Assembly (NCBI GenBank): GCA_903847405.1 | Contig: CAINDP010000078.1 | Coordinates: forward strand, 1-46,947 | DNA: 46,947 nt | Direction of reading: 5' to 3' | Source: an uncultured Myxococcales bacterium | Lineage (GTDB): Bacteria > Myxococcota_A > UBA9042 > DTJE01 | Part shown: positions 28,930 to 34,497 of the stretch, in pieces | Layout of the letters: every line of letters starts with the position of its first letter | How positions within the stretch are numbered: position 1 is the stretch's first letter | Notes under the pieces: generated by a model | What the model was told of the DNA's origin: nothing | The model's database searches: none | Seen by the model: only the letters and a program-made list of their open reading frames with translations | Made by a program: the position numbers and the translations under genes

Positions 28930-29835
28930 TCATCTCAACGCCTCGGCGCCGCCGACGATCTCCAGCATTTCCGTGGTGATCGCCGACTGCCGGGCCTTGT
29001 TGTACTGCAGCGTCAGGCGGCCGATCAGCTCGCCCGCGTTCTTGGTCGCCGACTCCATCGCCGTCATGCGGGCGCCCATTTCGGCCGCCAGGGATTCCAG
29101 CACGGCGAAGTACAGCCGCACGTTCACGTACAGCGGCAGCATCGACGACAGGATCGCGTCCCGGGACGGCTCGTAGGCGAACTCGATGCCTTCCAGCCGA
29201 GCGTCGGCGCCCTGGTCCACTTCGGCCCCCTCGGCTCGCTCGGGGCAGGCTCGCTCGGGGACGATCGGCAGCAGCCGCTCGACAACGACCTGCTGGCTGA
29301 TGGCGGACTTGAACTCGTTGTACACCACGTACACCGCGTCGTGGCCGCCGTCGATGAACCGGGCCGTGATTTCCGCGCCGATCTCGGCGATCCGTTCGAA
29401 CGTCGGGTTCGACAGGACCTCCATGTATTCCTTGAACACGGAAACCTTGCGGCGACGGAAGTAGTCGCGTCCCTTCCGGCCCAGCAGGGCCAGTTCCAGT
29501 TCCTCCTGGCCGCCCTCCAGGCTGTGGACGTAGCGCTCGGCCCGGCGGTTGATGTTGCTGTTGAACGCGCCGCACATGCCGCGATCGCTGGTGATGACCA
29601 GCATCAACGCCTTCTTTTCCTCGCGGACCTGGAGCAGAGGATGGACGTCGCGGTTGGTGTGCTCGGACAGGTCCCAGATCACCTGGCGGATGCGGGTGGC
29701 ATAAGGCTGCGTCCGGAGCATGTTGTCCTGCGCCCGGCGCAGCTTGGCGGCAGCCACCAGTTTCATGGCGCGCGTGATCTTCTGCGTGTTCTTCACGCTG
29801 GTCAGGCGGCGCCGGACTTGCTTGAGCGTCGGCAT
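28930..29835 (-). CDS. atpG: ATP synthase gamma subunit with an in-frame repeat insertion
   Basis: The 301-residue rotor shaft has the N-terminal helix MPTLKQVRRRLTSVKNTQKITRAM and the C-terminal helix MTAMESATKNAGELIGRLTLQYNKARQ that insert into the alpha3beta3 hexamer. In the variable middle region the protein reads IVPERACPERAEGAEVD, where related subunits have a short loop. The underlying DNA is a duplicated 13-mer (separate repeat entry). Because the insertion is in frame and in a surface loop, function is probably retained. It is separated from atpA by 41 bases that contain a small hairpin. Confidence 0.95.
   Translation of the reverse strand: MPTLKQVRRRLTSVKNTQKITRAMKLVAAAKLRRAQDNMLRTQPYATRIRQVIWDLSEHTNRDVHPLLQVREEKKALMLVITSDRGMCGAFNSNINRRAERYVHSLEGGQEELELALLGRKGRDYFRRRKVSVFKEYMEVLSNPTFERIAEIGAEITARFIDGGHDAVYVVYNEFKSAISQQVVVERLLPIVPERACPERAEGAEVDQGADARLEGIEFAYEPSRDAILSSMLPLYVNVRLYFAVLESLAAEMGARMTAMESATKNAGELIGRLTLQYNKARQSAITTEMLEIVGGAEALR
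29233..29260 (-). repeat. Tandem 13-bp repeat inserted in atpG
   Basis: GGCTCGCTCGGGG (plus-strand reading) occurs at 29233..29245 and 29248..29260, two bases apart. On the coding strand it gives the repeated peptide PERA-C-PERA. Short in-frame repeats inside essential genes are known from Rickettsia palindromic elements and similar families in other genomes; whether this belongs to a dispersed family cannot be told from one window. Confidence 0.75.
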
Positions 29836-31428: not shown

Positions 31429-31971
31429 CTATCGGGACTCCAACAGGTGCGAACGAAGCGACTCCAGGTACGTCCGCGCGGACAGGTCGAACACGCGGTC
31501 GCCAACGACGATCCGGAGGCCGCCCAGCAGTGCCGGGTCGCGCCGCTCCGTCAGGACCAGTTGCTTCTTGAGCGACGTGCCGATGGCCTCGCGCAGCCGG
31601 GCCATCTGGGCCGGCGCGATGGGACCGGCCGATTCCAGCACGCCGGTGGCACGGCCCGCGCGGATGTCACGCTCCTCGCGGAGGGCCGTCACCAGCGCAT
31701 CGGGGCGTCCCAGGCGGCGGCGGGAGGCCAGCAGCCCCAGGAACCCGCGCGTCGTATCGGACAGGGCCATCTTGGTTGCGACGGCGGCGACGGCCCGGGC
31801 CGTGGCCTCGGCGGGCACGGTCGGATCCGCCAGGATTTCCCTCAGGGCAGGCACCGCGGCGACGGTGGCGGCGAACGACTCGACTTCCGCCAGCACGCGG
31901 TCCACGGCGCCGGTTTCAGCGGCCACGTCCAGCAGGGCGGCGGCATACCGCCGGGCGGCGATGTCGGTCAT
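31429..31971 (-). CDS. atpH: ATP synthase delta subunit
   Basis: The 180-residue OSCP/delta protein begins DIAARRYAAALLDVA, the family signature, with the conserved FLGLLASRRRL segment. It ends with the GGLRIVVGDRVFDLSARTYLESLR motif that binds the b stalk. It joins the peripheral stalk to the top of F1. ATG 31971 and a GTG two codons upstream are both possible starts. It lies ~97 bases after the annotated atpF stop, but only 12 bases after the stop of the extended atpF frame. Confidence 0.94.
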   Translation of the reverse strand: MTDIAARRYAAALLDVAAETGAVDRVLAEVESFAATVAAVPALREILADPTVPAEATARAVAAVATKMALSDTTRGFLGLLASRRRLGRPDALVTALREERDIRAGRATGVLESAGPIAPAQMARLREAIGTSLKKQLVLTERRDPALLGGLRIVVGDRVFDLSARTYLESLRSHLLESR

Positions 31972-31983
31972 GGACACCTCACG

Positions 31984-32544
31984 TCAGGACGGCTTGTTCC
32001 CGACCTCGCGCACAACGCGATCCACCACGCCTTCGGGCAGGGCGGCGCCGGACTTTGCGGCCAGCCGTCATTCCACCAGCGCGAACGCCTTCGTCACCAC
32101 GGCCTCGGCCAGGTCGGCCCGCGCCATCTTCACGGCCTGATCCATGCGGAAGTCGGCCTCGGCCCGGATCTTTTCGGACAGCACGACACCTTCGTGGGCC
32201 AGGGCGTCCCGCTCGGCCTGTCCCTGCCGACGGAACTCTTCCATGACGGTGTTCATCTCGTCGTTCAGGACGGACAGGCGTTCCTCGGCGGTCTTCATCC
32301 GGGCTTCGGACTCGGCGAATTTCGCCCGGGCGTCGTCCAGTTCGGCCTTCATGGCGTCGTGGCGGTCGGCCAGGGCCTGGCGGGCCCTGGGCCACACCAG
32401 CCATGCCACCGGGACGAACAGGATCAGGAAGTCCACGAGGTACACGTAGAAGGATTCGCCGGGCCCGCCGCCGCCTTCCGCGAGGGCCACGGCGGGCAGG
32501 GATGCGGCGACCAGGGCCGCCAGGGCCAGCGTGCGCCGACTCAT
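31984..32544 (-). CDS. atpF: ATP synthase b subunit with an in-frame TGA 28 codons before the apparent end
   Basis: The first stop (TGA, 32068..32070) gives a 158-residue protein: signal-like N terminus, a membrane helix (SFYVYLVDFLILFVPVAWLVW), then a long charged coiled coil. The same frame continues after that TGA for 27 sense codons, RLAAKSGAALPEG...DRVVREVGNKPS, then a second TGA at 31984..31986. This tail looks like a normal b-subunit C terminus, the part that contacts delta, and keeps the local codon bias. Read through, the product is 186 residues. So either the gene has a recent nonsense mutation or sequencing error, or the TGA is recoded. The start overlaps the atpF' stop (ATGA). Subunit b is half of the peripheral stalk. 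Confidence 0.85.
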
Positions 32545-33011
32545 CGTGCCTCCACCGACTGCATCTGCGAATCGATCAGGGCCGCCAGTTCCGCGGCCGT
32601 GGTGTCCGTCGTCGACATGAAACGGGCCTTTTCGGCCTCCAGGCCGGCCAGTTCCTGGTCCATGCGGGCCTGGGCGCGCTCCCGCTCCTTCGTGACGATG
32701 CCGTCCCGCAACGCCACGCCATCCTCGGCCAGGCGGCGGCGTTCCAGCACGGCCGCCTGCTTCGCGCCCGTCAGGCGGCGCTCGGCGTCCTCGTCCAGTT
32801 CCTTCGCCCGGCGCAGCGCGTCCTTGGCCCGCTCGCGAAGGCCGTGACCGGCCTGATCGCGCAGTCGCAGACGGCGTACGTAGGGCTTGAAGAAGACCTG
32901 GGACAGCAGGATGTAAAGCACCAGGAACATCGTCATCTGGACGAAGTAGGTCGCATCCAGATCGACCAGGGCCGCGGCCAGGGGGGGCGCAAGACTGACG
33001 ATTGCATCCAT
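32541..33011 (-). CDS. atpF': ATP synthase b' subunit
   Basis: This 156-residue protein has one N-terminal membrane helix (TYFVQMTMFLVLYILLSQVFF) followed by KPYVRRLRLRD and a ~110-residue charged coiled coil. It is a b-type peripheral-stalk protein distinct from the next gene, so the operon encodes a b/b' heterodimer, as in several alphaproteobacterial, cyanobacterial and deltaproteobacterial-type synthases. It is the first gene of the operon. The ATG has GGAGGT eight bases upstream. The stop overlaps the atpF start. Genes for subunits a and c do not precede it. Confidence 0.88.
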   Translation of the reverse strand: MDAIVSLAPPLAAALVDLDATYFVQMTMFLVLYILLSQVFFKPYVRRLRLRDQAGHGLRERAKDALRRAKELDEDAERRLTGAKQAAVLERRRLAEDGVALRDGIVTKERERAQARMDQELAGLEAEKARFMSTTDTTAAELAALIDSQMQSVEAR

Positions 33012-33176: not shown

Positions 33177-34250
<1,074 letters not shown>

Positions 34251-34358
34251 TGTCATCCCCTTTCGTTCCAGCCGTCGCCGGGCCGTCAACCGCGCCCGGG
34301 TCCGCACCATGCTGGGGCCTCCACCGACCCTCGTCAACCGGTCCCCGAAATGGTCCCC

Positions 34359-34384
34359 GAAATGGGGACAGACACCGATTTTCC
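34359..34384 (+). repeat. GGGGACAGACACCGATTT-family repeat, forward copy
   Basis: The core at 34364..34381 is identical to the 26.9-kb element. Just upstream the 12-mer GGTCCCCGAAAT occurs twice in tandem, as if the left flank had been duplicated. Confidence 0.85.
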
Positions 34385-34497
34385 CGGCTCCACCGGGGGC
34401 CTGCGATAACCAGGACTTGTGAAAGCCGTGTGGGAGGCGGGGGAGAACTCCCATCTTGCCAGCGTGTCAGCGAAAGGTCGTGGGAACGAGGGTTTGC

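Follow-up and report, generated by a model that had tools for sequence, protein, structure and literature searches.

Does the in-frame TGA in the ATP-synthase gene atpF of an uncultured Myxococcales bacterium mark a naturally shortened b subunit, a recoded codon, or one altered base in an otherwise ordinary gene? The window, by which we mean the whole stretch of 46,947 nucleotides that was analysed, belongs to a metagenome-assembled genome with a completeness of 96.7% (G000); G001 and G002 are its two congeners.

The atpF locus

The atp cluster has the order atpF', atpF, atpH, atpA, atpG, atpD, atpC, with atpF', atpF, atpH and atpG on the minus strand; atpF occupies the place of a b-subunit gene, between atpF' and atpH. 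The b' subunit is encoded by a 156-aa ORF (atpF', 32541..33011) that matches the NCBIfam model PRK07353 for F0F1 subunit B' (E=1.1e-11), while its match to Pfam ATP-synt_B (E=5.3e-6) falls just below the cut-off. The TGA of atpF' and the ATG of atpF (32544-32542) overlap as ATGA. From this start, atpF is open for 158 codons up to the first TGA (32068..32544) and scores 34.3 bits against PF00430 (ATP-synt_B), where the curated cut-off is 28; the genome search gave 35 bits. Adjacent atpF' and atpF of unequal length are also found in the b/b' heterodimeric peripheral stalks of Paracoccus and of the chloroplast type, from which the present pair differs in nothing unusual but the stop. The gene likewise resembles that of the bacterial F-type b subunit (AtpF; PF00430, TIGR01144) in operon order and in encoding a membrane helix region at the N terminus, a long helical middle part and, behind the TGA, a C-terminal section that aligns to E. 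coli b; what sets it apart is the stop interrupting the frame at codon 159, which only this assembly has.

Reading the frame bears out what the first-pass annotation had described: the TGA of codon 159 (32068..32070) is followed by 27 sense codons (31987..32067), and these by a further TGA at 31984..31986, which sequence and alignment to G001 identify as the natural stop of full-length atpF. The span first pointed out, 31984..32070, takes in the two stops together with the tail. The tail translates as RLAAKSGAALPEGVVDRVVREVGNKPS; an example of a peptide encoded past codon 159 is SGAALPEGVVDR. The intact delta-subunit gene atpH (31429..31971; Pfam OSCP, E=3e-36) starts with an ATG at 31971-31969, with an in-frame GTG at 31977 as an alternative start. 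Twelve bases separate the natural atpF stop from the atpH ATG, and the earlier suggestion that the extended frame restores tight operon spacing agrees with these coordinates.

Inspection of the other frames gave a 30-aa ORF (31979..32071, minus strand) whose ATG overlaps the premature TGA, again as ATGA. It would encode a basic peptide and ends 7 bases ahead of the atpH ATG. It is presumably a chance ORF, from which, as speculation, re-initiation towards atpH could occur.

The sequence behind the stop

The closest relative compared, G001, belongs to the same genus (83% identity) and has an open b gene; in the alignment, 23 of the 27 tail residues are identical between the two. A profile built from 18 relatives aligns without gaps across the tail to b subunits of solved structure (E. 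coli, Bacillus PS3 and others), and in the case of E. coli b, residues 10-156 align gaplessly to the atpF frame including the C-terminal section. Counted from this alignment, codon 159 corresponds to profile position 157 and E. coli b residue 134, and the tail to the normal b C-terminal section from about residue 135 onward. These alignments support the earlier view of the tail as the usual delta-binding C terminus: the section that binds delta and F1 is encoded in the atpF frame behind the TGA and is in frame in the relatives.

Compared with the G001 codons, the tail has four nonsynonymous and five synonymous differences, a dN/dS of about 0.30 on small numbers, versus 0.27 in the body of atpF. 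The tail is apparently under constraint much as the body is, although counts of this size are not decisive alone, and relative to G001 it carries no damage except the stop itself. Judged by its homology, the tail is genuine b-subunit coding sequence, beyond what chance would give.

Distribution of the stop among relatives

We searched 52 genomes of the class, one genome per species, and 51 had a match. The main b gene is open over essentially the whole profile in 50 of these 51; G000 alone has a stop. That the same stop occurs in none of the 50 other class genomes (main b gene) is a strong argument against a conserved, programmed stop. The first-pass annotation had proposed comparing AtpF across residue 159, with relatives ending at the same position as the outcome that would speak against it, and no relative with such an end was seen among the class relatives aligned.

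Codon 159 is variable. It is GGA (Gly) in G001, GAC (Asp) in G002 and Gln in both G005 and G011, and across the relatives Gly, Asp, Gln, Lys, Ser, Glu, Thr, Arg and others occur; neither Cys nor Trp was seen at the equivalent position among 17 aligned relatives. The TGA is one base away from the G001 codon (GAA TGA CGG CTG in the window versus GAA GGA CGG CTG). On this comparison, the stop is private to the single metagenome-assembled genome.

One TGA at first listed within the G005 b gene, and one within that of G011, proved to be ordinary terminal stops pulled in by an over-long alignment, and the profile search gave none in these genes. In G015, also of the class, a second and weak match to b (G015:C160:3661-4155, minus strand) holds one in-frame TAG.

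The state of the genome was assessed by aligning genes from parts of G000 to G001 and G002; the alignments, about 80 with 33,693 codons, contained no other internal stop. General gene decay was rejected, since every stop outside atpF in these alignments preceded the true start, coincided with a natural end or fell in an antisense-like ORF; two loci (L077 and L134) were assigned in this way by eye, on the strength of base composition and of where similarity sets in. Thus, G000 is not visibly decaying, nor is its assembly visibly error-ridden.

Tests for recoding and read-through

Insertion of selenocysteine would agree with an in-frame TGA followed by a conserved frame, but G000 yielded no tRNA-Sec above the gathering score, the best three hits being ordinary Trp and Ser tRNAs, and no SelB above the cut-off. 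With no Cys in the 17 relatives and no unusual downstream hairpin in addition, we regard selenocysteine at this codon as exceedingly improbable.

Reassignment of UGA, or a Trp suppressor, was rejected because TGA is the main terminator, ending 44 of 74 sampled genes, and because the tRNA-Trp(CCA) is normal by eye, with G24 and an anticodon stem of 5 bp, a length checked on the prompting of PMC13092985. The commonest context of TGA is TGA-C (21 of the 44), as at codon 159; together with the prevalence of TGA as terminator, this leaves nothing that singles the site out. The RNA downstream of the TGA folds no better than shuffled sequences (z=-0.33) and no Rfam family was found near it, one chance hit scoring far below the gathering score; a structured read-through element was rejected on these results. 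Neither the tRNA-Trp nor the downstream fold thus revealed the suppressor tRNA or stimulatory structure expected of programmed read-through. Of the three readings that had been offered at first, a nonsense mutation and a one-base error both stand, while programmed read-through found no support in any test made. Nothing supports the stop being programmed; weak, ordinary leakiness is conceivable.

What truncation would remove

In E. coli, residues b136-b154 cap the attachment to F1 (PMC7251095). One b C terminus is in contact with delta (PMC6131620). By alignment, a b subunit ending at codon 159 would be without the entire C-terminal cap section of F1 attachment, and the partner b' is also too short to provide it. 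Searches of G000 found b and b' genes in one copy each, with no second b gene, and a single a-subunit gene without stops; the other ATP-synthase genes looked at are open. As an alternative rotary ATPase subunit, a V/A-type subunit D was looked for in the genome and not found. Given the loss of the cap section, the short b', the single b, b' and a genes and the lack of a V/A-type subunit D, a fixed truncation should, from established knowledge of the enzyme, badly harm oxidative phosphorylation. A limited literature search on b C-terminal truncation mutants returned reviews and structures and no primary deletion study.

Origin of the stop

The assembled sequence contains the TGA, which no relative read has and which is a single base away from GGA in G001; the tail following it is homologous b sequence. 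The gene itself is ordinary, and its stop is a one-base change private to this assembly. The interruption most likely arose either from an error in sequencing or from a harmful mutation of very recent date, and there is no sign of new biology. Between the two, we lean towards a consensus error in the assembly, which we consider somewhat the better bet: the gene would be an ordinary F-type b gene in which a single-base change creates a TGA at codon 159, and the cells would make a normal b subunit of 186 residues. What favors the error over a real allele is the severe harm that such an allele would do to a core enzyme present in single copy, the undamaged state of atpF elsewhere, and a genome that is not visibly decaying. 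Speaking against an error is the assembly, which is not visibly error-ridden in the sampled alignments.

That the sampled population carries a genuine nonsense mutation of very recent origin is a serious but less probable alternative, with perhaps one chance in three, and a strain-level allele of this kind would look identical in the assembled sequence. It would leave a b subunit of 158 residues that has lost its delta-docking C terminus, and a peripheral stalk weakened or lost. The presence of the TGA in the assembly and a tail intact apart from the stop fit such a recent change, and in-frame stops in otherwise constrained prokaryotic genes are reported to be common but short-lived (PMC7918605). 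The cases of Belinky et al. 2021 (PMC7918605) resemble the present one in that a single premature stop is followed by a constrained frame in one lineage; here, however, the genome is metagenome-assembled and a consensus error is possible. Expression of atpH need not be lost with the allele, since it may, speculatively, be translated by re-initiation at the new ATGA, an overlap of the kind already in use between atpF' and atpF, which opens the 30-codon ORF ending close to the atpH ATG. Weighing against the allele are the damage to a single-copy core enzyme, a b' too short to act as a substitute with no alternative rotary ATPase subunit found, and the open state of the other ATP-synthase genes looked at.

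Two further explanations take the TGA as real. Near-cognate read-through of a leaky TGA, giving some full-length b beside the truncated form, seems unlikely to us: bacteria are known to read through UGA at a low level with normal tRNAs (PMC7918605) and the frame is intact and apparently constrained up to the normal C terminus, but the stop is kept in no relative, and the tRNA, the downstream fold and the TGA-C context are all ordinary. It is a good deal more doubtful still that such leakiness determines how much full-length b is made relative to truncated b and thereby tunes the number of ATP synthases with a working stator. Read-through, if demonstrated, would provide a rare example of a recoded core enzyme of energy metabolism. 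Hardly more credible is a natural, shortened b subunit that no longer needs its C-terminal cap, which we rank slightly lower again; mapped on E. coli, the cut coincides almost exactly with the point where the coiled coil ends, but no such end occurs in relatives of the family, order or class, and no decay is seen in the tail following the stop.

For annotation, the distinction matters in that automatic gene calling would give a short b subunit, open to misreading as decay of the ATP synthase. The comparison shows instead a normal atpF with one private base change.

Other features of the cluster

Within atpG (28930-29835, minus strand), an in-frame segment RACPERAEGAE (CGAGCCTGCCCCGAGCGAGCCGAGGGGGCCGAA) lies at 29221-29253. 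No further copy was found at <=6 mismatches in the 1.04 Mb of G000 searched, and the segment looks like a small repeat-derived insertion.

In the window, atpF' is preceded by an Mrp-like ATPase gene (33177-34454) and not by atpB or atpE, and atpB, encoding the a subunit, lies on a separate contig (G000:C138:21013-21645, minus strand). From this arrangement, the Fo genes appear to be split from the F1 cluster in G000.
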